25,775 nucleotides of DNA from a virus, in IMG/VR virus record IMGVR_UViG_3300022752_000346, positions 1-25,775 of that record. One strand, written 5' to 3'. The notes beneath the pieces are model-generated. The model did no database searches. It saw only the letters and a list, made by a program, of their open reading frames with translations, and was not told the origin of the DNA. Position numbers and translations under genes: made by a program. Positions 2,474-25,710 of the stretch are shown in pieces (within the stretch, counting starts at the first letter, position 1; each line of letters begins with the position of its first letter).

Positions 2474-2794
2474 ATGGCACAATATTTCGACAGATACGGT
2501 AATTTTAGAGAAAACGGTCAAATGAAACCATTACCTGGAATCTCTATTCCTTCAGCCAATAGTGATAAATTAGCTGTTTATAAAAAAGGTGTTAGTAGAC
2601 TTGACAAAATAAGCAACACATATTATAATAACCCATACAGTGGTTGGTTGATATTGTTAGCTAATCCTCAATTTGGTGGTTTAGAGTTTAACATTCCAGA
2701 CATGTCACCAATAAGAGTGCCTTTTCCTTACGACAATGCTGTTCAAAGATATATAAACGAAGTTAAAACATATACATTGCTTTATGGCCAATAG
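2474..2794 (+). CDS. 53: gp53-like baseplate wedge protein
   Basis: This 106-residue protein has the pattern of the short gp53/LysM-like baseplate wedge family: 'GVSRLDKISNTYYNNPYSGW' (residues ~39-58), then 'ILLANP', then a proline-bearing 'IPDMSPIRVPFP' end. The family is typically read as 'R-x-D-x-(I/V)-x-x-x-Y-Y-x-x-P-x-x-W ... N-P ... I-x-x-G-x-x-(I/L)-R-(I/V)-P'. T4 gp53 (196 residues) is longer, so this is a minimal version. In T4 it links wedges to the hub. The gene starts 13 bases after the upstream stop with an A/T-rich leader and no Shine-Dalgarno sequence, and its end overlaps the hub gene by 11 bases, implying translational coupling. Family assignment is by eye. Confidence 0.65.
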   Translation: MAQYFDRYGNFRENGQMKPLPGISIPSANSDKLAVYKKGVSRLDKISNTYYNNPYSGWLILLANPQFGGLEFNIPDMSPIRVPFPYDNAVQRYINEVKTYTLLYGQ

Positions 2795-5700
2795 ATTACA
2801 AGGAGTAGACCCTAATAGTGTTGATGAACTAGATTCTAGCTCTAATTTTTTTGTACCGTATGAAGATTTGACAATATTTGTTGAATTAAGTACTGAAAAA
2901 AAAGAAAGAACACTTTTGACAACCACATCATCTGGTAGTTTTACTGAAAGTAATAATAGGGTTAAAATAAATTTTATTGAAGGTGAATCTTTTAATGGAC
3001 AACGTTCTTTAACAACAAAATTTACTGAATTAACAACTAGTTTTGATGGAGAAAATTCTAGTGAAAATTTAGGCATTACTTCAATAGACATTGATTTTAA
3101 TTCTTCATTTGCACCAATGATTACAATTCAATTTGTTGATGTGAGGGGTAGTGCAATATTTCAAAATGAAAATAAAACAGCTAATAACAAAAACAAATAT
3201 TCCGTTTTTTTCCAATTACCATACCCTATATATAATTTAAAAATAAAAGGTTATTATGGCCAGCCAGTTGAATATTGTCTCCATATGACAAAATTTACAT
3301 CTAGATTTAATTCACAATCTGGTAATTTTGAAATAACAGCTAGTTTTGTTGGCTATACATATGCTATGTTATCAGATATGCTAATTGGTTACTTAAAATC
3401 AATAGAATATACAAAACTAGGTGCTGATAAGTATGCTGAATTAAAATCTCAAGACCCTAATTTAATGACTTTAGACGAACTATATGATAAGGTTTCAAAA
3501 ATAAATGAAGGTGTTAAAAGAATAGTTCAGAGTAATGACGAATATAAAAAATTAAAACTTATTGATAGTAAATTACTTATAATTAGTGATATAAGAGATA
3601 GAATAAAAAAATTTAGTAATGATGTTGATATTAATCAAAAACCTAGCACATATAATTTTGCTATCACTAAATTACCAAATGATGAATATAATAAATTTCA
3701 AAATCAATACATAACTGATATTACTAAGTTAATTGAAGATTACAATAAAGATATTGATATAAAAATAGATGAAAAATTTAAACAAGTAATAAAATATGAT
3801 GGCTTATCAATAAATATATTAGAAGATTCTACAGATGAATATTTTAGAGCTAGAGAACTTATAACTAGTGATGGTGATAAAAAAACAACTATAAAAAATT
3901 TATTAACATATATAAATAAAAACAATTATGTTTTAGCTTCTGATTTTACTTTCAATTCAATTGATAATACTTTTTTTTATAAAGAATTAGATGATAAAGT
4001 TTCTAAAATTAAAGATTTAATTAAAAGTTTACAAGAAATTTTAGCTACTGAATTAAGAAATAAAGTTAAAGGAGAATTAGATTTTGACCCATCAATAAGA
4101 AACATTGTAAAAATTTTTACAACGGCTGCTGAAGTTTTTATGTATTGCATAGGTAAAGTTTCAGAAGAAGCTTCGAAAGAATCAAATACAACTAGACGAG
4201 ATGAATTAGCAAAAGTTTTTAAAATAAAAGAAACGTCTGACATACCTAATGATGCTACAAATAAAGATTCTCAAGATATTTTAATACAATCATTTTATCC
4301 ATGGCCAGACTATAGAAAAGAAACAGACAATACTTTAGAAGAAACTTATTTAGGTGATTTTGGTGTGTTAGAGGAACCAAGTAATGTTGATGAATTATTA
4401 TTCATAGATGATTTACTAAGAGCATTTATAATACAAGCAAATAACCAATCTAATATAGAAGCTTTAGCAAACGCAAATAAAAGTAATTGGATTCCATCGA
4501 ATCCTTTGGATACTAGAATATTTGGCAATGAATTATCACCATATAAAAGAATAAATCCATTAAAAGAAAATGACCTTTTAACATTGGTTTTAATAAGAGC
4601 GACAACTTTTTTAGGTCTTAATTCTAAAATAACGTCTGGTGAAATAACAAAAATGGCCGAAGCCGAAGCACAGGCCGTAGTTAACGATGTTCAAAATAAA
4701 CAAATTGTGCAAGCAATTTCTAATAATAACTCAGGCTCAACTGAGGTCATTCCTACTGTATCTAATGAAATAAATTTTTTTGACACTAAAATATTTGCAA
4801 ATAGTTCAAATATTGACTACAAATATGACTATATATTATCAGCTGATTCTAAAAAATTTTTACCAATAAATAATAGTTTTTTTAAAGCAGAATGGCCAAG
4901 TAATTATACTGAGTTAAAACAAAAACAAGAAAACGGTACTTTATTTTTAGGTAATCAATATTTTACTCCTTCAAATTTAACTTTAGATGATGATGGGTCG
5001 ATATATGTTAAAATAGTTGAAAATGAAACATATACTATTAATCATACTGATTTTCAGTTACCAATCACAACATCAGAATCACTAATTAATTTAGAATCTT
5101 TAAAAAACGATGCTACTAATATTGATGGAGTTGGTTTTAACGCTTTTGCTGGTCCTTATGGTGTTCAAGAATTCAGTCAATTAAATTGGAATATTGATAA
5201 TTTAGATGGTTTACCATTAAGTTATTTGTTTTATTCAGACTCAATTGATAAAGGTTATGGAATATTTGCAAATGGATTGGGTTATTTTAGAAATAACGAT
5301 AATGCTTTAAAAAATTCTGAGTTTGACGTAAAACAAAATAAATATAAGGTTGCGTCACGAGTTGACAACATATTGGACATGTTTAAGGTTCCTGAAAAAA
5401 TGTTACATGATTCATATGGAAAAAATAGAGAGTTGTTTAATAATATTAGACAATCTAAAAAAAATAATATTTCATACCCATATATACATTTTACTGTAGA
5501 CGCAAACTATGATTTTGTAGATAATCCATATAATACCCCATCCACAAATCAGTATTTAATGAGGAATATCTCAATACCAATTAGTTTATTCGGTAGCAAT
5601 TTTTATTATGGTCAATCAGATGAAAAAGCAAAAGCTTTTCTTTTTTTACATACATTACCGTGGAATGGTTTAACTGAATCATACTTAAAAACAATATTTA

Positions 5701-8312
5701 AAAATGGTTCACAAGATACTGAAATTTTAAATTTATTTAAATATAGGACTGGATTTGTTTCAGCACCAAAATTATGGGCTTGTTTTATAGGTGGATTGCT
5801 TTGGAGATTTGACAGTCAAATAGACCCTATTATTTTTTCATCAACAACAGGTAGTTTAATACCAATGGTTATTTCTTATCCACAAAAAAATGAGTTTATG
5901 ACTCTTTCTAATGAAGATGAAGATTATACGGATAAACCAATGTCTTTTAAAAACCGTTCAAACAATGATACTTATAAAAAAATTGATTCTATACTTTTAA
6001 ACCTACCAAGACAAGTTAAAAATGAATTTATAGAATATTTTTTAAAGTTTTCAGTTGGTGAAGATTGGACTTCTATTAAATCTGCTTTAGAAATAAATGT
6101 TAGTGGAACTTGGTTACAAGTTTTTAGCGCAGCAACAGCTTTAAACGTCAACTTGTCTCAATCTGGTAATGAGTATTATTTAAATACAAACAATTTAAAA
6201 ACTATTTATGGTAAAAATTTTGATAATTATATTATTTTTAACCCTTATTTAAACTACCGACTAAAAGGTAATTATTTTTTAGAAATAAAAGATAATGCAC
6301 CAATTACAAATATTTTAATTAACCTTTTACAAAAGCAAGTTTTTATATCAAATATGTCTTATAGGATATGGGATGAAAACATACCAAATTCTGATATTAT
6401 TATAGATGAAAAGAATTTAGAAGATTATTTTAATGTTTTTTTAAAAAAAGTTGAAGGCTTGTTACCAAAGTCACAAGAAGATGAAGAGAAAACAAAAAGA
6501 AATAGTATATTTGGTACTTCTGATGAAAACTTAATAAAATTCATGTTATATAGAACATGTAAAAACATTAATGATAAATGGATAACACAAACTACAGATG
6601 ATAATGTTTTTTTTCAGTGTGGTGTCAGAAACCAAACAGATTCAGCATTGGCGACAAAAAGAACCAGTAATTCAAGCAATCCATCATCAACACCAAGATT
6701 AATAGATAGTTTTAGATTTGTTGATAGAGCCTTTAAGGATATTGGAGATGATTTTGCATTAAACCCATTTCCAATTTATGATATGATGGGTTCACAGCCA
6801 AATACTAGTCTTTATAATTTACTTACATCTATATTATCATCAAATAATTTTGATTTTATTGCGTTGCCTAATTTTATAGATTATAGAAATAATAATAACT
6901 TAAAAAACGTCTTTAAACCGTACCCAAAATATTCAGTAAATAACATTTCTGGTCCTTCTTTTATTTGTATGTATGTAGGACAAACATCTAAACATTTAGA
7001 TTTTGGTGGTTCAAATTACCCTAATGATGGTTTTGACTTTAGGGATGGTGATACCCCATCTGATTTTAACTCTGAATTAAAAGATAATGAAGACCCAGTG
7101 ACATATTTTAAAGTTAGGTTTGGTCAACAAAATCAAAATATATTTAAAGATATATCATTAGACCAGAGTGAATTTGCTGAAACAGCAGAGTCTTTGCAAA
7201 TAATGGATGATATATCTAAAAAAGGTACTGAAACATATAGAACATTAGCTGGACAAAACATTTATAATGTATATTCCGTTAGAAGTTATAAAGTTGAAAT
7301 TGAAATGATGGGTAATGCAATGATTCAACCAATGATGTATTTTCAATTAGATAATATTCCCATGTTTCATGGTGCTTATCTTATTACTAGGGTAAAACAC
7401 AGTATTAAACCAAATTCTATGTCAACTAATTTTACTGGTACTAGAATAAGAAAACCAGCTACTAAAATATTAGATACTGGTTATTTATTTATGTCATTGC
7501 TTGAAACGTTAAATACAACTAACATTGATACTAATGGTGTGACAATTAATTCAAATAATTATAATTGGCAAACATCTGACGTAGAATGTGGGTCTTTCAA
7601 TGTTGGTTCAATAACTACTGATACTACTTTAACCGATGAAAAAGTACCTAATCTAACAGCCACTAAACCTATTAGAGATTTGGTAGCTAGGGTCGAAAGT
7701 CAACCAGACAATTACAATGCATATAATATTGGGGATTCTGGTGCACAAGGTTCTATGAATTATAAACCTTCAGACCTAACAATTAAACAAATTAAAGAAT
7801 TACAAGCATTACCAAATGGTAACGAAAAAAGAATTTTTGCGGTTGGGAAATATCAATTAATACCAAGTACGTTTAGCGGAATGACAAAAGCTTTAGGGTT
7901 TAATGATAATGAAAAATTTGATTCTGAAAAACAAGAAAAAGCAGGTATTTGGTTAATAAAAGATGGTGCTGGAGGTAGAAAAGGGTTAAAAGCGTATTTT
8001 GCAAACGATAGCAATGGTACAGAATTAGACCTTCAAAAAGCGATAACTGATTTAGCTTTAGAATTTGCTTCAATGCCAACATTTTTTGGACCTAATAAAG
8101 ATTCAGCAAAAATTTACAGCAATCCTGGTGGATACTATCAAAATACTTCATTATATGGTGGAACGGCTGGAAACCCTGCTTCATCTAAATTTTGCGCTTT
8201 AGATGTAGCTAAAGCTTTAATACAAACATGGAAAAACTTAAATCCTGGAAAAACGCCTGAAATAGATTATGAAACCATATTACAAAGAGGTGGTCAACAA
8301 CCAACAGCTTAA
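2784..8312 (+). CDS. Giant baseplate hub protein with C-terminal lysozyme/transglycosylase-like domain (gp27 + gp5-like)
   Basis: This 1842-residue protein appears to combine the tail-spike hub and the cell-wall-cutting enzyme. Residues ~172-207 ('FNSQSGNFEITASFVGYTYA') and ~1497-1560 (an MMGNAMIQPMMYF stretch, then HGAYLITRVKHSI, ending TNFTGTRIR) resemble the split barrel of gp27/gpD-type hub proteins. Residues ~1620-1842 look like a lysozyme/lytic transglycosylase domain: 'VARVES' with a candidate catalytic Glu at 1638, a following NAYN segment, and 'GKYQLIPSTF' near 1690, the usual signature of soluble-transglycosylase-like muramidases. The middle (~210-1490) is Asn/Lys/Ile-rich and unrecognised. 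In T4 these functions are split between gp27 (391 aa) and gp5 (575 aa). The start overlaps the gp53-like gene by 11 bases. Confidence is high for a hub/tail lysin and moderate for exact homology. Confidence 0.7.
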   Translation: MANRLQGVDPNSVDELDSSSNFFVPYEDLTIFVELSTEKKERTLLTTTSSGSFTESNNRVKINFIEGESFNGQRSLTTKFTELTTSFDGENSSENLGITSIDIDFNSSFAPMITIQFVDVRGSAIFQNENKTANNKNKYSVFFQLPYPIYNLKIKGYYGQPVEYCLHMTKFTSRFNSQSGNFEITASFVGYTYAMLSDMLIGYLKSIEYTKLGADKYAELKSQDPNLMTLDELYDKVSKINEGVKRIVQSNDEYKKLKLIDSKLLIISDIRDRIKKFSNDVDINQKPSTYNFAITKLPNDEYNKFQNQYITDITKLIEDYNKDIDIKIDEKFKQVIKYDGLSINILEDSTDEYFRARELITSDGDKKTTIKNLLTYINKNNYVLASDFTFNSIDNTFFYKELDDKVSKIKDLIKSLQEILATELRNKVKGELDFDPSIRNIVKIFTTAAEVFMYCIGKVSEEASKESNTTRRDELAKVFKIKETSDIPNDATNKDSQDILIQSFYPWPDYRKETDNTLEETYLGDFGVLEEPSNVDELLFIDDLLRAFIIQANNQSNIEALANANKSNWIPSNPLDTRIFGNELSPYKRINPLKENDLLTLVLIRATTFLGLNSKITSGEITKMAEAEAQAVVNDVQNKQIVQAISNNNSGSTEVIPTVSNEINFFDTKIFANSSNIDYKYDYILSADSKKFLPINNSFFKAEWPSNYTELKQKQENGTLFLGNQYFTPSNLTLDDDGSIYVKIVENETYTINHTDFQLPITTSESLINLESLKNDATNIDGVGFNAFAGPYGVQEFSQLNWNIDNLDGLPLSYLFYSDSIDKGYGIFANGLGYFRNNDNALKNSEFDVKQNKYKVASRVDNILDMFKVPEKMLHDSYGKNRELFNNIRQSKKNNISYPYIHFTVDANYDFVDNPYNTPSTNQYLMRNISIPISLFGSNFYYGQSDEKAKAFLFLHTLPWNGLTESYLKTIFKNGSQDTEILNLFKYRTGFVSAPKLWACFIGGLLWRFDSQIDPIIFSSTTGSLIPMVISYPQKNEFMTLSNEDEDYTDKPMSFKNRSNNDTYKKIDSILLNLPRQVKNEFIEYFLKFSVGEDWTSIKSALEINVSGTWLQVFSAATALNVNLSQSGNEYYLNTNNLKTIYGKNFDNYIIFNPYLNYRLKGNYFLEIKDNAPITNILINLLQKQVFISNMSYRIWDENIPNSDIIIDEKNLEDYFNVFLKKVEGLLPKSQEDEEKTKRNSIFGTSDENLIKFMLYRTCKNINDKWITQTTDDNVFFQCGVRNQTDSALATKRTSNSSNPSSTPRLIDSFRFVDRAFKDIGDDFALNPFPIYDMMGSQPNTSLYNLLTSILSSNNFDFIALPNFIDYRNNNNLKNVFKPYPKYSVNNISGPSFICMYVGQTSKHLDFGGSNYPNDGFDFRDGDTPSDFNSELKDNEDPVTYFKVRFGQQNQNIFKDISLDQSEFAETAESLQIMDDISKKGTETYRTLAGQNIYNVYSVRSYKVEIEMMGNAMIQPMMYFQLDNIPMFHGAYLITRVKHSIKPNSMSTNFTGTRIRKPATKILDTGYLFMSLLETLNTTNIDTNGVTINSNNYNWQTSDVECGSFNVGSITTDTTLTDEKVPNLTATKPIRDLVARVESQPDNYNAYNIGDSGAQGSMNYKPSDLTIKQIKELQALPNGNEKRIFAVGKYQLIPSTFSGMTKALGFNDNEKFDSEKQEKAGIWLIKDGAGGRKGLKAYFANDSNGTELDLQKAITDLALEFASMPTFFGPNKDSAKIYSNPGGYYQNTSLYGGTAGNPASSKFCALDVAKALIQTWKNLNPGKTPEIDYETILQRGGQQPTA

Positions 8313-18963: not shown

Positions 18964-19350
18964 ATGGCTGAATTAAAATACATCAATATAAATTATCCAT
19001 TTAAGAACAGCTCAAAGGGTTTTTTTTTGGATTTGACCAGTGATGAAAATGCAGCAATCAAAGCTGACCTATTGCATTTAATATTAACTAGAAAAGGTCA
19101 AAGACTTTATAATCCAGAGTTTGGAACTGATTTGCTTAGATATATTTTTGAACCAGAAGATGGATTGACATTATCTAAAATAAAAGAAGAAATAGACACA
19201 GCGGTAAACAAATATTTACCAAAACTTAAAGTAAATAATATAAGTGTTGAACCATCAGAATTAAATGACCACGCAGCTGTGGTTAGGTTTGACTATACCA
19301 TAACAGATGACGTTTTTACAACAACTGATTTTGTAATAATTAATATATAA
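18964..19350 (+). CDS. 25: gp25-like baseplate wedge protein
   Basis: The 128-residue protein (T4 gp25 is 132) has the family signature 'LLHLILTRKGQRLYNPEFGT' (residues ~35-54), then 'LLRYIFEP', then a helix and strands ending in 'VIINI'. gp25 is the most conserved wedge protein of contractile injection systems; it joins gp6 and gp53 around the hub and helps start sheath polymerisation. A run of nine T at 19020-19028 encodes Phe-Phe-Leu and does not break the frame. It lies one base before the gp6 gene, the same order as T4 genes 25 and 6. Confidence 0.9.
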   Translation: MAELKYININYPFKNSSKGFFLDLTSDENAAIKADLLHLILTRKGQRLYNPEFGTDLLRYIFEPEDGLTLSKIKEEIDTAVNKYLPKLKVNNISVEPSELNDHAAVVRFDYTITDDVFTTTDFVIINI

Positions 19351-19351
19351 T

Positions 19352-21169
19352 ATGGCACAAGGAATAAACTACACTTCTCGTAATTTTGCGGACATAAGAA
19401 CTGACCTAGTAAACATGGTCAGACAATACTATCCAGACATTTTTAATGATTTTAACGATGCATCTGTTGGTATGATGTTATTGGAATTAAACGCTGCTGT
19501 TGGGGACATGCTCTCCTTCAATACAGATAGAATGTTCCAAGAAACACAAATTGATTATGCACAACAAAGACAATCAATTCTTTCTTTAGCTAGAACGTTT
19601 GGTTTGAAGGTTCCAGGAAAACGACCAAGTGTAACAATAGTTGATTTTTCAGTAACAGTACCACCTTTTGGTGATACATTTGATGTCTCATATGCACCAA
19701 TTATTAGAGCTGGAGCGCAAGTAAGCGGAGCTGGTAAAGTATTTGAAACACAGTATGATATTGATTTTTCAAATCCTTTTACAATAGGTGGTATACCAAA
19801 TAGACTTATTATCCCAAATTTTAATTCAAATGGCATTTTAACTACATATACTATTACAAAAAGAGAAATGGTTATAAATGGTTTTACTAAAATTTTTAAA
19901 AGAACTATTTCACCAAATGATGTAAGACCATTTTTTCAAATAATACTACCAGAAAACAATGTATTATCAATTAATTCTATTATAGCTCTTCAAGGTACAA
20001 ATTTTACTCAAGACCCATCACTAGACCAATTTTTAAATATTCAAAATAGATGGTTTGAAATGGATGCACTAGCCGAAAGTGAAATATTCATTGAAGACAC
20101 AGCTGTAGCTAGTGATAATGCTGGTATTAGACCAGGAAAGTGGATTACAGTAACAAAAAAATTCATACGTGAATACACTGATTTAGGGTTTACCAAAATA
20201 ACATTTGGTGGTGGTAGCCAAGATGTTAGTAGTCTTTGCGACTTTGATGTAAACCCAGCTTTGGTTAATCAAATTGGTGATTTTATAAACAATATGGCAT
20301 TGGGTGAAACACCAACAGCAAATACAACTATGTTTATAAAATACAGAGTTGGTGGTGGTGGAGACACAAATTTAGGACCAAATGTGTTAACTAACATAGG
20401 TTTATTAAACATGACTGTAAACGGTCCAAATCAAACTATAAACAATTCTGTTAGGGCATCTCTTGTTGTAAACAATCCATTACCAGCATTGGGTGGTAAA
20501 GACGCTCCTAGCGTTGAGGAAATTAGGAATATGGTTAAGTATAACTTTTCAGCTCAAAATAGAGCTGTAACAATAAAAGATTATCAGAGTAGAATTTCTT
20601 TAATGCCAGGTGAATTTGGAGTTCCTTTTAGATGTGGTGTATTTGAAGAACAAAATAAAATTAAAGTTTATGTAATGAGTTTAGATGCTAATGGAAAGTT
20701 ATCAAACAATTCAACTAGCACACTTAGAAGTAATATAGCAACATATTTAGCAGATTACAGAATGTTAAATGACTATGTTCAGATTTCAAATGGTAAAATA
20801 ATAAATCTTTCTTTTGAAATTGATTTATTTGTTGATAAAAAAGCACCACAATCACAAATCATATCTCAAGTAATTTCTAGTGTTCAGAGCTTTATGGATA
20901 TAAACAAATATCAAATGGGTGATAATATATATTTGTCACCTTTAATTGAAAATATAAATAATGTTGGTGGAGTTTTAAACGTAATTGATTTAAGAATCTT
21001 TAATAAAGTAGGAAATGGATACAGTGTTAATGAGATTTCACAACCTTACATAGATACAGCGACAAGACAAATAGACATAGCAAGTGACTATACATTGTTT
21101 GGCGACCCAATTACTATGTTTGAGATAAAATTTCCAGCACAAGATATTAAAGTAAGAGTTAAATCATAA
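19352..21169 (+). CDS. 6: gp6-like baseplate wedge protein (baseplate J family)
   Basis: The 605-residue protein (T4 gp6 is 660) begins 'NYTSRNFADIRTDLVNMVRQ' and 'DASVGMMLLELNAAVGDML', typical of gp6/baseplate-J proteins. The mid-region 'PSVEEIRNMVKYNFSAQNRA' followed by 'VTIKDYQSRI' (~384-415) is the family hallmark ('tr.DY'). gp6 forms the ring of heterodimers that triggers the baseplate change. The C-terminal ~200 residues hold the beta-strand-rich dimer part, including 'NLSFEIDLFVDK'. The gene starts one base after the gp25 stop (TAATATGG), so the two are co-translated. Confidence 0.9.
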   Translation: MAQGINYTSRNFADIRTDLVNMVRQYYPDIFNDFNDASVGMMLLELNAAVGDMLSFNTDRMFQETQIDYAQQRQSILSLARTFGLKVPGKRPSVTIVDFSVTVPPFGDTFDVSYAPIIRAGAQVSGAGKVFETQYDIDFSNPFTIGGIPNRLIIPNFNSNGILTTYTITKREMVINGFTKIFKRTISPNDVRPFFQIILPENNVLSINSIIALQGTNFTQDPSLDQFLNIQNRWFEMDALAESEIFIEDTAVASDNAGIRPGKWITVTKKFIREYTDLGFTKITFGGGSQDVSSLCDFDVNPALVNQIGDFINNMALGETPTANTTMFIKYRVGGGGDTNLGPNVLTNIGLLNMTVNGPNQTINNSVRASLVVNNPLPALGGKDAPSVEEIRNMVKYNFSAQNRAVTIKDYQSRISLMPGEFGVPFRCGVFEEQNKIKVYVMSLDANGKLSNNSTSTLRSNIATYLADYRMLNDYVQISNGKIINLSFEIDLFVDKKAPQSQIISQVISSVQSFMDINKYQMGDNIYLSPLIENINNVGGVLNVIDLRIFNKVGNGYSVNEISQPYIDTATRQIDIASDYTLFGDPITMFEIKFPAQDIKVRVKS

Positions 21170-21229: not shown

Positions 21230-21574
21230 ATGGCTGGATGTAATTGTAAAGGTAATGTTATGAATGGTGAATCAAATAACGACTCACCAAAATCAATTTT
21301 TCAAAATACAGTAAATTATGGATTAAAATTACTTATGTTTTTAATCTTTTTGGTAATGTTACCATTGGTAATTGTATATATTGTTTATTTAGGTTTTAGC
21401 ATAATTGTGTTAAATAAAAATGTAAACATGAAACCATTATTATCGGCTATTGGTAATAAGTTTAGAGAGAAAGACGATGAAGATAATTTTATTGATGAAG
21501 AAGAATTAAAAAATCTAACAGAAGAAGATGTTATTTTATTAGACGCTGATGATATAACAGATAAACAATTTTAA
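21230..21574 (+). CDS. Small membrane protein in the baseplate block (unknown function)
   Basis: The 114-residue protein has a short N-terminal part with a 'CNCKG' Cys pair (C4, C6), one long hydrophobic stretch at residues ~31-61 broken by Pro45 (one long membrane helix or a tight hairpin), and a strongly acidic C-terminal tail (residues ~80-114). There is no cleavable signal peptide pattern. I do not recognise the family. Location between gp6 and a giant baseplate protein that also carries a membrane-like segment suggests a virion or infection-stage role rather than a lysis role, though a holin-like function cannot be excluded. The gene ends five bases before the next ATG. Confidence 0.6.
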   Translation: MAGCNCKGNVMNGESNNDSPKSIFQNTVNYGLKLLMFLIFLVMLPLVIVYIVYLGFSIIVLNKNVNMKPLLSAIGNKFREKDDEDNFIDEEELKNLTEEDVILLDADDITDKQF

Positions 21575-21579
21575 AATTA

Positions 21580-24500
21580 ATGTCAGAATCAATAAGAATA
21601 AGGACTACACCAAATGGGGGTGACAAATACGTCAAAGTTAAGATAGACCAAGATATAGATTTTGTTGAAATTCTTTCATTAAAGATTTCACAAGATGAAT
21701 TATATAGGGAATTTTGTTCTGACTATGGTGTTGTTGCTGGTAGGGTTATAATTAACAGCGGATTTGGTGTTCCAAATGCCAAAGTAAGTATATTCATACC
21801 TATTGATGAGGTTGATAAGAAAAATGTTGAACTATCGGCTATTTATCCATATGAAACTGTTGGCGATAAAAATAGTGATGGTATTCGCTATAATTTATTA
21901 CCTAGATATTCTGATTCAGAAAATACTTGTTTTACAGCAGTTGGTACATTTCCTAGTAAAAGAGAAGTATTAGATAACTCAAATATTTTGGAAATTTACT
22001 GCAAATACTATAGATTTACAACAACAACAAATTATGCTGGTGACTTTATGATATTTGGAGTACCAGTTGGAACATATACACTCCATGTTGATGCTGACAT
22101 TTCAGATATTGGTATTGCGTCTCAAAGACCATATGATTTAATAAGAAAAGGTAGTTCACCTAAATTTTTTAATAGTCCGACAAAATTTAAAAATGACACA
22201 AATTTAAACACGCTGATTCAAATAAAATCAGCAGATGTGGGTGTAAACATACAACCTTTTTGGGGCGACATGGAAAATTGTGAAATAGGTATTACAAGAG
22301 TTGATGTAGATTTAAATTATAATTTAGAACCTTGTGCTATTTTTATGGGTAGTATTTATGGCGACCAAGATAAAAACTCAGTAAATAAAAATTGTATTCC
22401 TAGAAAAAAATTTGGTGAAATGTGTGAACAAGTTACATCAGCTGGTTCCATAGAAATGATTAGAAAAACTTTAGATGATACAATTGAAGAGTTTTCTATT
22501 GACGGTGGTAGAGTCATTGATGATGACGGTACTTGGGCTTATCAAATTCCAATGAATTTAGATTATATGATAACTGATGAAACTGGTGCGCTCATTTTAT
22601 CCGAAGACCCAAGCAAAGGTATCCCAACTAGAGCTAACGTTAGGTTTAGAATAGGTATGGATGAGACTGGTGGTTTAGGTAGACTTAGAACTAGAGCAAA
22701 ATATTTGGTCCCAAACAACCCAAAATTACCTTCTGAGATAGATTATAATTTTGACGAAAATACAAAACCAACTAGTTTTAGAAATTTATATTGGAATAAA
22801 ATATATACAGTTTCAAATTTTATAACTAGGTATCAGAGAAGTATTACAGGTGCAGCGGATAGAAGCATAACAGCCATGAAAAGTGTCGATGCATGTGCTG
22901 GTGATAAGAATCCATTCCCATATAATAGAGTAAACACAACAACCAATCCAATATTTTTTATAATATGTTTGATTATAAAAATAATTGGATTTATCGTTGG
23001 TTTGATTAATTCAATCATTATACCTCTTATAAATGCTATTGTGTCTATTGTTAGAGCAGTGGTTGATATTATTAATTTTTTTGGAAACGATGTAACAAAA
23101 CCAGATTATGTTCCGTGTGTTACAATTGAATGCCCATCAGATAATGGGTCGTTATTTGCCCCAGGCTGTAAAGAAGGCACCGATGGTTATGTCGCTGCCA
23201 ATCCAACATATGGTTGTGGTGGTACGTATGGTGATTGTTCACCCTTTAATTTGGTTGGATTAGATGATTGTTTAGCATTTCAAATGGCTCAAGATTTAAA
23301 TTTATTTCAGTTTGATTTTTATAATGATTGGGTTAATGGAACCTTGTTTAGTTATCTTTTAAAGTATAAAAGAAGACAAAGTCAAGAAGAAAGATTTTGC
23401 GAGTTTGATTGTTCTGATTTTACTGGGGACCCTAACTATACTGGGGTTGATGGAAACGGTGATGGTACACCAGATAATGATTGTACAAACCGTGTTTTAT
23501 TAGACACATGTTATAATTGTGGTGGTGGTGGTTTACATTTACCAAGTTCTTCTGGCGGTTTTCAATTTAATTATTTAGATTGTCAAAAAGAAAGTCGCGA
23601 TAATGGTTTAATAAGAGAGGGTTTAATTAAAAAATATAAAGGTGAATTATATTATGCTGCTACCCTACATACATTAACACCGTTTAAATTATTTGCAACA
23701 GAAATTGTTTGTTTAGGTTCTGTATTTACATGTGATTGGCAAGGTTATCCTAAATTACAACCAAATTTAGTCACAACTTCATACAAATTACCTCCAGAGA
23801 TTGAAGAAAAAGATAGTAATAACACTACAGTATTAGCAAGTGGTCAGGTAACAATTGGTCTTGGTTCAAAAGGTTTATTTTTTGATATTAATTGTGTTGG
23901 TTTACACGTTGATTATCAACAATGTCTTAATCTTAGACATATTTGTGAAATCGGTGTTGATTTAGATGAAGCCATCTTTATCCCAACAACAAACCAATTT
24001 ATACCAGCTGATTCAATAATGGGTTCAAATGATATAACTGATTTAAATGAACAATTTAGAAATGCGTTTCTTTACATAAATAGTGGAACAACATTTCCAG
24101 TTATTTATTCACAACCAACAAACATTAACAGCAACTTCAATACTAGCAACTCAGCAATTTATAATTTTGCTAACAATATAGATAATGGTATTGATTATGC
24201 TAATTTTAGAGGATATTTTTCACTTCAGACACCACCACAACCAATTGATAATAATTATTGGCAATCAAAACATTCATTTTTCATGTATTTTGGAATAATT
24301 CCAGGTCGTTCAGCTTTAGATAAAATGAATCAAAGGTATTTTACACCATGTATTGTACCAGTTGATTCTGATATGCTTATAGATGCCACAGTTACCCCAG
24401 CAACTGGCTCAACATCAGCTGATGGGACAATAACGTTTACAATTGTTGGTGGACAAGGACCATATACATATGTAATAACAGACAACTTAACAGGAAACCA

Positions 24501-25710
24501 ACCATCTGGATGTGCATGTTCTGGAAATACAATCAACATAACAACAACACCGCCTAGTGTTACAGTAAATAATTTACCGCAAGGAACTTACACGATAAGT
24601 GTATTTGATGCAGCTGGAAACCCAGCAACACAAACAGTTGTTGTAGGTGGACCAATTTCATTTTATTGTAGTGCAAGTGTTACGCAAAACAATACATCAG
24701 CTACTTCACCAGATGGTGAAATAACATTTAATGCAATTGGTGGAACACTACCATATACATATTCTTTGATTGACGAAAATAATAATCCTGTATCAACTGG
24801 TCAAATACCATCACCTACATCAACTACAGTTGTTTTCAATTCTTTACCTTCAACATCAACACCACAAGGTTATACTGTTATAGTAAATGATTTTAATGGA
24901 GCAATATGTACAACAACTGGTTTGACAATTTCTGGCCCGACCGTTATTTCCATAATACCATCTGTAACCGCAACAACATGTTATTATGGAACTTTAGATG
25001 GTGCAATATCTATAACTATTATCGGTGCTCAACAACCATATACAGTTATAACAACTGGCGCTGGTCCAAATAATAGCAATTTTTATAGCGCTTCACTTAA
25101 TTTAACTAATTTAGCGGCTGGTAATTATTTAATTACTGTTAATGATGCCACAGGTCAACAACAATCTCAACAAGTTTCAGTTGGAACAATCGGAGCTATG
25201 TTACAATTAAACCCAGCATCAGCTAGTGAATTAGCTAAACAATGCGACCCAAATAACTATACAATTCCTTTTTATATTACTAATGGTTTATCTAATGGTG
25301 CAATAGCTTATATTGAGTATAGAGTAGATAATTCAACAACATGGAATTATTTAATAGCAGCCCAAACATGGACCACTGCAAGTGCTCTCATGTCATTTGA
25401 CGTCCCTAGCACAGCGTTTTTAAATACAATAACCTTTAGGTTTAGTGACACATCTAATCATGCTTGTCATAGCAATACGTTAACATACAATAAAGCGTCA
25501 ATGACGTTGCCAAGTTCTATATTAAGTAAAACAATTAACAATGGCAATAATAATAACGGTTATGTTCAAGCTCAAGGTGGTATACCTCCTTATACGTGTT
25601 CAATAAACGGAGGACAAGCTCAACCTATGACTGGTCTTCCAGCAACCCTTTCATTTAATGGAACAATAAACTCGGTAGTAGTAACAGATAGTGTTGGTTG
25701 TACAGCATAA
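21580..25710 (+). CDS. Giant composite baseplate/adhesin protein (gp7 position) with SprB-like repeats
   Basis: The 1376-residue protein follows gp25 and gp6, the place of gene 7 in T4 (1032 residues), but I see no clear gp7 similarity. Visible parts are: ~51-175, a carboxypeptidase-regulatory-like beta-sandwich (V-A-G-R-V-I-I-N-S-G, then F-T-T-T-T-N-Y-A-G-D-F and a VPVGTYTLHVD end); ~456-504, a very hydrophobic membrane-like segment; ~511-675, a region with about 12 Cys and a calcium-loop-like D624-G-N-G-D-G-T-P-D632; ~676-935, unrecognised; ~936-1205, three SprB-like repeats, with a fourth partial one at ~1327-1376. Such repeats are known from Bacteroidota gliding adhesins. The role is probably wedge attachment at the N-terminus and envelope contact at the C-terminus; this is inferred. 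Confidence 0.7.
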   Translation: MSESIRIRTTPNGGDKYVKVKIDQDIDFVEILSLKISQDELYREFCSDYGVVAGRVIINSGFGVPNAKVSIFIPIDEVDKKNVELSAIYPYETVGDKNSDGIRYNLLPRYSDSENTCFTAVGTFPSKREVLDNSNILEIYCKYYRFTTTTNYAGDFMIFGVPVGTYTLHVDADISDIGIASQRPYDLIRKGSSPKFFNSPTKFKNDTNLNTLIQIKSADVGVNIQPFWGDMENCEIGITRVDVDLNYNLEPCAIFMGSIYGDQDKNSVNKNCIPRKKFGEMCEQVTSAGSIEMIRKTLDDTIEEFSIDGGRVIDDDGTWAYQIPMNLDYMITDETGALILSEDPSKGIPTRANVRFRIGMDETGGLGRLRTRAKYLVPNNPKLPSEIDYNFDENTKPTSFRNLYWNKIYTVSNFITRYQRSITGAADRSITAMKSVDACAGDKNPFPYNRVNTTTNPIFFIICLIIKIIGFIVGLINSIIIPLINAIVSIVRAVVDIINFFGNDVTKPDYVPCVTIECPSDNGSLFAPGCKEGTDGYVAANPTYGCGGTYGDCSPFNLVGLDDCLAFQMAQDLNLFQFDFYNDWVNGTLFSYLLKYKRRQSQEERFCEFDCSDFTGDPNYTGVDGNGDGTPDNDCTNRVLLDTCYNCGGGGLHLPSSSGGFQFNYLDCQKESRDNGLIREGLIKKYKGELYYAATLHTLTPFKLFATEIVCLGSVFTCDWQGYPKLQPNLVTTSYKLPPEIEEKDSNNTTVLASGQVTIGLGSKGLFFDINCVGLHVDYQQCLNLRHICEIGVDLDEAIFIPTTNQFIPADSIMGSNDITDLNEQFRNAFLYINSGTTFPVIYSQPTNINSNFNTSNSAIYNFANNIDNGIDYANFRGYFSLQTPPQPIDNNYWQSKHSFFMYFGIIPGRSALDKMNQRYFTPCIVPVDSDMLIDATVTPATGSTSADGTITFTIVGGQGPYTYVITDNLTGNQPSGCACSGNTINITTTPPSVTVNNLPQGTYTISVFDAAGNPATQTVVVGGPISFYCSASVTQNNTSATSPDGEITFNAIGGTLPYTYSLIDENNNPVSTGQIPSPTSTTVVFNSLPSTSTPQGYTVIVNDFNGAICTTTGLTISGPTVISIIPSVTATTCYYGTLDGAISITIIGAQQPYTVITTGAGPNNSNFYSASLNLTNLAAGNYLITVNDATGQQQSQQVSVGTIGAMLQLNPASASELAKQCDPNNYTIPFYITNGLSNGAIAYIEYRVDNSTTWNYLIAAQTWTTASALMSFDVPSTAFLNTITFRFSDTSNHACHSNTLTYNKASMTLPSSILSKTINNGNNNNGYVQAQGGIPPYTCSINGGQAQPMTGLPATLSFNGTINSVVVTDSVGCTA
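24385..25707 (+). repeat. SprB-like protein repeat region
   Basis: Four divergent protein repeats: residues ~936-1024, ~1029-1120, ~1122-1205 and ~1327-1376 of the giant protein. Each has the pattern 'x-V-T-x-x-x-(C/S)-x-x-x-x-D-G-x-I-(T/S)-(F/I)-x-x-x-G-G-x-x-P-Y-(T)-x-x-(I/L)' followed by 'N-L-x-x-G-x-Y-x-(I/V)-x-V-x-D-x-x-G'. The second ends with 'TVIVNDFNG' and the third with 'YLITVNDATG'. At DNA level the copies are diverged, so this is an old, selected array and not an assembly artefact. Confidence 0.7.

Follow-up and report, generated by a model that had tools for sequence, protein, structure and literature searches.

Gene content and position of the SprB-array gene

The virus record IMGVR_UViG_3300022752_000346 from IMG/VR is a single linear sequence of 25,775 bases, which was analyzed here over its whole length (the window). 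Its last long open reading frame (ORF), closed by its own stop codon at position 25710, encodes a 1376-amino-acid (aa) protein of the tail/baseplate gene block whose residues 931–1376 match the SprB repeat family. SprB is a gliding adhesin of Flavobacterium johnsoniae. The protein consists of a core that is conserved among its homologs, followed by a C-terminal string of immunoglobulin (Ig)-like domains, and the positions of these parts and of the adjacent genes are given in Table 1.

A previous sequence-only reading of this DNA had placed the gene in a baseplate block, and the gene order bears this out. The genes just upstream encode gp25-like and gp6-like baseplate wedge proteins, the latter 27% identical along 605 aa to the protein annotated as baseplate wedge in Flavobacterium phage immuto. 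Nearly all related loci that are long enough have the order gp25, gp6, a 114-aa ORF, the 1376-aa gene, d600, d325, d293, d307 and d875, where the last five are names coined in this analysis for the downstream genes.

Table 1 Features of the SprB-array gene and its surroundings (positions in the window)
Feature	Position	Strand	Basis
gp25-like baseplate wedge gene	18964..19350	+	PF04965, E 3.6e-13
gp6-like baseplate wedge gene	19352..21169	+	phrog_219, E 4.3e-22
114-aa fast-evolving ORF between gp6 and the 1376-aa gene	21230..21574	+	ORF list; locus comparison
Tail/baseplate-block protein, 1376 aa, stop included	21580..25710	+	ORF; 79 homologous IMG/VR loci
Conserved core, residues 1–925, ending in a [YF][FM]YFG-type motif	21580..24354	+	Alignment of homologs
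Transthyretin/CnaB/carboxypeptidase-regulatory-like beta domain with insertions, residues 46–249	21715..22326	+	Core model, fold matches
Very hydrophobic helix, 44 residues, 457–500	22948..23079	+	Helix in model; hydropathy
SprB unit R1, residues 931–1013	24370..24618	+	PF13573, bacterial unit profile, AlphaFold model
SprB unit R2, residues 1016–1107	24625..24900	+	PF13573, bacterial unit profile, AlphaFold model
SprB unit R3, residues 1112–1192	24913..25155	+	PF13573, bacterial unit profile, AlphaFold model
Fourth Ig-like domain without SprB match, residues ~1207–1296 (boundaries approximate)	25198..25467	+	AlphaFold strands
Partial/diverged SprB unit, residues 1307–1374	25498..25701	+	Bacterial unit profile, 17.7 bits

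The SprB repeats and their predicted fold

The Pfam SprB family (PF13573) matches the 1376-aa protein in four stretches with an E value of 1.3e-9 and 37.9 bits (cut-off 28), and the score rises to 43.9 bits when the C-terminal 476 aa are scanned alone. A unit profile of 82 positions, built from 267 bacterial repeats only, finds R1, R2 and R3 at 34.9, 27.6 and 35.9 bits as well as the partial unit, and it gave no match among 882 shuffled or reversed C-termini. Thus, the three complete repeats and one partial repeat that had been read from the sequence are all present, although an Ig-like domain between R3 and the partial unit that does not match SprB had been overlooked. An AlphaFold model made with 42 aligned C-termini (41 of the 44 that are 300–700 aa long, plus the window; L017, L031 and L043 were left out as near-copies) is a chain of beta-sandwiches, as tandem domains of this kind should give, with a mean predicted local distance difference test score (pLDDT) of 89.1; its predicted template modeling score of 0.59 leaves the relative placement of the domains unsure.

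In a fold search with this C-terminus the best virus model carries the name ‘SprB repeat [uncultured Caudovirales phage]’ (A0A6J5LD72 and A0A6J5LDA4, which we know here by name only), so phage SprB repeats are already in protein databases by name, from uncultured phages. Within the library of papers searched, ‘SprB repeat’ appears alongside ‘phage’ only in work on polymorphic toxins, and none of the Protein Data Bank chains among the sequence matches is named SprB, which is no proof of absence. The fold matches also include pieces of the Aureispira grappling-hook protein (Z 9.0, 302 aligned residues, root-mean-square deviation [rmsd] 10.7) and a chain of the lambda central tail fiber (Z 8.9, 150 aligned, rmsd 12.3).

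The array resembles Bacteroidota SprB adhesins in its repeat family and tandem arrangement, but it differs from them in several respects. The phage units are 81–92 aa long and number only three to five, whereas the bacterial arrays examined have a spacing of ~76 aa. No type IX secretion system (T9SS) sorting domain (TIGR04131, TIGR04183 or CHU_C) was found in the 1376-aa protein at E 0.05 in NCBIfam, and Por_Secre_tail reaches only 18.5 bits against a cut-off of 27, at residues 1166–1196 within R3. Outside the core helix region no 21-residue stretch attains a mean hydropathy of 1.6 (best 1.30), so a signal-like N-terminus is not apparent by this measure, which was used in place of a dedicated predictor. 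Having neither a hydrophobic N-terminal segment nor a T9SS sorting domain, the protein is not a secreted host-type adhesin.

SprB repeats and generic phage Ig-like domains

The sequence-only reading would have failed had the region turned out to be a generic phage Ig-like domain no closer to SprB repeats, and this was not the outcome. SprB is the top-ranked Pfam family in the window scan and is matched by all 42 C-termini scanned, among which Ig_3, I-set and Ig_2 are absent at E 0.01; in the window protein Ig_3 and I-set are absent up to E 10, where search filters remove most matches above 0.1. The whisker protein of the T4-like Klebsiella phage KMI7, our single generic phage Ig control, behaves differently, ranking Ig_3 at the top (1e-20) and SprB in fourth place. 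A profile built from the phage units finds bacterial SprB units with a median of 44 bits (245 of the 296 at 15 bits or more) and the KMI7 whisker at 28 and 25 bits, a comparison that leans towards SprB because the profile was aligned on the bacterial one. These rankings argue against the array being composed of generic Hoc- or whisker-type Ig domains that have come to resemble SprB by convergence inside the Ig superfamily. That explanation, which we consider unlikely, draws on the fact that the bacterial SprB profile also detects the KMI7 whisker (best domain 32.4 bits), that PF13573 passes there (30.1 bits vs the cut-off of 28), and that phage Ig proteins come closest in sequence among solved structures. 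The array shares Ig-like domains and a detectable sequence relation with Hoc, neck-whisker and decoration proteins but differs from them in its best Pfam family. By sequence comparison the SprB assignment holds, with a blurred border to generic phage Ig domains and one thin control.

Among genomes sampled from three phyla, whose group names were taken from record titles, PF13573 scores above cut-off in 60 of the 296 belonging to the phylum of a Paludibacteraceae metagenome-assembled genome (Bacteroidota), in 0 of 299 in that of a Clostridiales-titled genome and in 0 of 292 in that of a Prochlorococcus-titled genome; one and two genomes, respectively, of the last two groups have matches below cut-off. 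This restriction, and the fact that the repeat family is common to host surface adhesins, might fit molecular mimicry of SprB-type adhesins of the host, in which the array would dock on the gliding/T9SS machinery or, as a decoy, compete for the ligands of these adhesins. Mimicry seems very improbable to us, as the phage units are old and diverged from the bacterial ones (see below) and the array has no T9SS sorting domain.

Distribution of the array in the phage family

We scanned IMG/VR for relatives of the gene and kept the best 80 of 83, which make up 79 loci. An ORF with a stop codon and an adequate start is present in 65 of these, the others being open-ended ORFs and L062, whose homolog is broken into three ORFs that overlap in different frames, through either sequencing error or frameshifts. 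After removal of ten near-copies the homolog set has 56 rows including the window.

PF13573 is found at E 1e-3 in 62 of the 79 records (47 of 50 plus 15 of 29). The 17 records without it comprise five open-ended ORFs that are truncated within the array or ahead of it (L023, L046, L049, L050 and L052), 11 relatives that have no array, and L059, which stops after a single diverged unit. On a tree of the core with 60 rows (45 with SprB and 15 without), the array is restricted to one clade, with an outgroup that lacks it and some members that end just past the core. The two states are separated by one label change with support 84, and none of 500 shuffles was as low. The tree was made by a quick method with long branches flagged, so the placement of L088 and L064 is unsure; L004 and L082 (N-terminus cut) and L089 were left out of it. 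L059 was labeled SprB on a 13-bit unit despite its PF13573 miss, and L068 was labeled non-SprB despite one 15-bit unit by the bacterial profile. Ten of the 11 array-less relatives lie outside the SprB clade (L082 is the one not placed). As the array is missing or replaced in relatives outside this clade, it is not essential to the family. L057 is the first branch inside the clade, and its units are the most similar to bacterial ones. On this distribution the simplest reading would be a single early gain of the array followed by divergence; an early loss in the other branch may account for it instead.

Six relatives come from contigs that carry the titles Clostridiales, Bacteroidales, Prochlorococcus, Paludibacteraceae (two) and Mycoplasmatota. 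The host link that such genome contigs might give was ambiguous; they may be phage contigs that ended up in bins or in sorted cells. The core tree includes five of the six, all outside the SprB clade. One of the six, L088 (in a contig titled Prochlorococcus sp. AG-409-L21), is a syntenic relative without SprB that could have a host outside the Bacteroidota or be a co-sorted virus.

Evolution of the array

The nearest neighbors of 135 units at positions R1–R3 show that the array is old and ordered, as 129 are nearest to the unit at the same position in another phage, four to a bacterial unit (three of these belong to L057), two to a unit at another position and none to one in the same protein. 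The sequence-only reading had suggested acquisition from the host, and an ancient acquisition is plausible, but recent transfer is rejected for most members of the family. It had also suggested host-range variation by repeat exchange; shuffling of repeats within one protein was not seen, although domain-sized allelic replacement occurs in some close pairs.

These pairs were chosen for high core identity rather than sampled, and identical pairs were uninformative. L037 and L055 differ by 0–5% over 20 kb except at the locus end (13%) and in the array gene (bins up to 26%). Within that gene the N-terminal core is nearly identical, and residues ~410–810 and 1080–1170 are replaced. Fourfold sites in these blocks are changed as well, which argues for recombination rather than point selection alone. 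In the pair L010/L017 a single block is replaced, at ~1260–1305, where 46% of bases and 67% of fourfold sites differ (3–17% and 0–33% elsewhere), and the divergence of this pair peaks near the C-terminal end of the array gene. L044 and L031 have one replaced block, in the helix region, and the window differs from L027 by 5–13% upstream and by 11–33% in the array gene, increasing towards the gene end. Overall, the variation is among alleles, and in close pairs the array gene is the divergence hotspot of its neighborhood, with replacements the size of domains.

The ratio of nonsynonymous to synonymous divergence (pN/pS) increases from the N-terminal core to the C-terminus in seven diverged pairs. 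In the order N-terminal core, middle and C-terminus, it is 0.10, 0.21 and 0.36 in L041/L043; 0.03, 0.10 and 0.17 in L012/L016; 0.06, 0.22 and 0.23 in L044/L031 (level between middle and C-terminus); 0.07, 0.27 and 0.48 in L010/L017; 0.02, 0.34 and 0.50 in L037/L055; 0.00, 0.25 and 1.02 in L055/L029; and 0.02, 0.06 and 0.20 in L071/L070, which are without SprB. In L055/L029 the C-terminus has 15.5 nonsynonymous and 4.5 synonymous changes and the N-terminal core 0 and 8 (Fisher test on rounded counts, P = 0.0004), small counts from a near-identical pair.

The raised pN/pS and the allelic replacement in the array are difficult to reconcile with SprB domains that bind no ligand and act as structural spacers or as contacts for baseplate assembly. 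The ordered, position-specific array (129 of 135 units) and the natural single-unit version in L059 would suit such a role, which nevertheless appears improbable.

The conserved core and its hydrophobic helix

Per-block mean identity of the core to the window is 58–79% up to residue 420 and lower thereafter, and four homologs end 48–124 aa past the start of the motif that closes the core. No PHROG family matches the core at E 0.1 and no annotated phage record matches it at E 1e-3; a core profile also failed to match the protein in the same place in phage immuto or the ORFs of the LR756508 stretch. In the core model (pLDDT 83.7) the best VIA rows for the beta domain near the N-terminus have Z 8.5 (79 aligned, rmsd 1.9) and 8.2 (83 aligned, rmsd 2.5); this domain filled the core fold search, which barely probed the rest of the core.

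A 21-residue stretch with mean Kyte–Doolittle hydropathy of at least 1.6 is present at the helix region in all 56 homologs and elsewhere in the protein in four of the 56, and cysteines 463, 518, 564, 607, 772 and 924 are conserved in all 56. A hydrophobic helix at constant position together with conserved cysteines is odd for a phage structural protein and suggests membrane contact. One could imagine that a diversifying SprB arm of bacterial origin docks on the host surface and that the core then inserts the 44-residue helix into the outer membrane, a scenario that we regard as quite unlikely; if true, the protein would be both receptor arm and membrane-opening device in a large phage family that is as yet uncultured.

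SprB units in other tail-block proteins

Six sister records (L127–L132) have SprB units in further genes of the tail block. Three additional units sit at the C-terminus of the d875 homolog of L127 (51% identity over 883 aa), and a shorter protein of L132 contains one or two. A comparison of repeat number among related phages, which had been proposed from the sequence, finds it strongly variable in the protein encoded after d875, with seven units in L127 and one in each of the four homologs in L128–L131. Arrays on several tail-block proteins of one phage favor a portable adhesion module.

A different kind of protein is encoded at L085:2757-7781 (LR756502, a 642-kb ‘uncultured phage’ record). 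It is 1675 aa long with 13 SprB stretches, PKD_4, a signal-like N-terminus and a T9SS type B sorting domain (TIGR04131), and represents either a secreted adhesin of host type within a huge phage record or a misassembly.

Other genes of the window

Further upstream the window contains gp32-like, UvsX-like, exonuclease, DnaB-like and ribonucleotide reductase genes, followed by those for gp25 and the gp6-like protein. The most similar versions of the reductase in phage records are those of Cellulophaga and Tenacibaculum phages, which, with the immuto-like wedge protein, suggests but does not prove a Bacteroidota host. The 114-aa ORF has only 55–62% identity in the close relatives L005, L006, L008 and L027, whose gp6 proteins are 82–94% identical, and it may encode a partner of the variable 1376-aa protein. 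The 1842-aa protein encoded at positions 2784–8312 has an endolysin-type PHROG match at residues 1588–1786 (phrog_90, E 2.8e-11) and is perhaps a tail-associated lysin.

Probable role of the array

From the domain identity, predicted fold, gene neighborhood, clade distribution, divergence hotspot and mosaicism described above, we infer that the 1376-aa protein is probably a baseplate-region virion component with a core anchor and an exposed SprB adhesive arm that contacts a Bacteroidota host, the array having been gained once and its alleles replaced since. The N-terminal core would anchor the protein in the baseplate, and the five Ig-like domains in a row, of which three to four are SprB repeats, would project as the arm and contact a glycan or protein of the host surface, or extracellular polysaccharide, during adsorption. 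The array may have been acquired early in one clade, either from a bacterial adhesin or from a different phage gene with SprB repeats. Domain order would have been kept thereafter while single domains diversified and were swapped allele by allele, with replacements tracking changes in the binding partner. The array lies at the fastest-changing end of the region, as expected of the part that touches the host. A receptor-binding or decoy role, as put forward in the sequence-only reading, would fit this evolutionary signature.

Several observations weigh against this reading. Hypervariability extends to the middle of the core, a stretch that does not have to belong to an arm. The pN/pS gradient is also present in the SprB-less pair L071/L070, so the C-terminus diversifies no matter which domains it carries, in support of an exposed role but not of one specific to SprB, and the steepest gradient comes from the few changes in L055/L029. 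Relatives outside the SprB clade have other C-terminal extensions or none. The solved-structure fold matches of the C-terminus are generic fibronectin/Ig tandems, all within 1 Z, and in sequence the solved structures that lie nearest are those of phage decoration, neck-whisker and Hoc proteins (E 7e-6 to 2e-3); with such relatives, it is the gene order that argues for a baseplate location.

The arm might instead bind the environment (biofilm matrix, algal or mucus polysaccharide, or particles) rather than an infection receptor and so keep virions near their hosts. Ig/BACON proteins of Bacteroidota-associated gut phages gave epithelial binding when displayed on another phage (PMC13370021), and SprB arrays recur on several tail proteins. 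We nonetheless think this rather unlikely, since diversification centered on the array gene is more in keeping with a specific, contested partner than with a general glue.

The SprB array is most likely a modular adhesive arm on the baseplate, comparable to the arrays of crAss-like phages. Tail proteins of those phages have tandem repeats of the BACON domain, which the authors link to tails and possible host binding (PMC6949934). Both cases combine a tandem Ig-like Bacteroidota domain, a tail-associated phage protein, a poorly conserved C-terminus and bacterial kinship (PMC6949934). They differ in Pfam family and in the location of the present carrier in a gp25/gp6 baseplate block, and the crAss cluster-1 array is attributed there to duplication within the phage, whereas the units here hold position-specific identity.

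Beyond this parallel with the BACON arrays, it appears that a Bacteroidota adhesin repeat was recruited once onto a tail-baseplate protein, in a phage family without a match in the annotated phage collection searched. The SprB-array gene is where its neighborhood diversifies, and it thus offers a concrete place to seek host recognition in large Bacteroidota phages.

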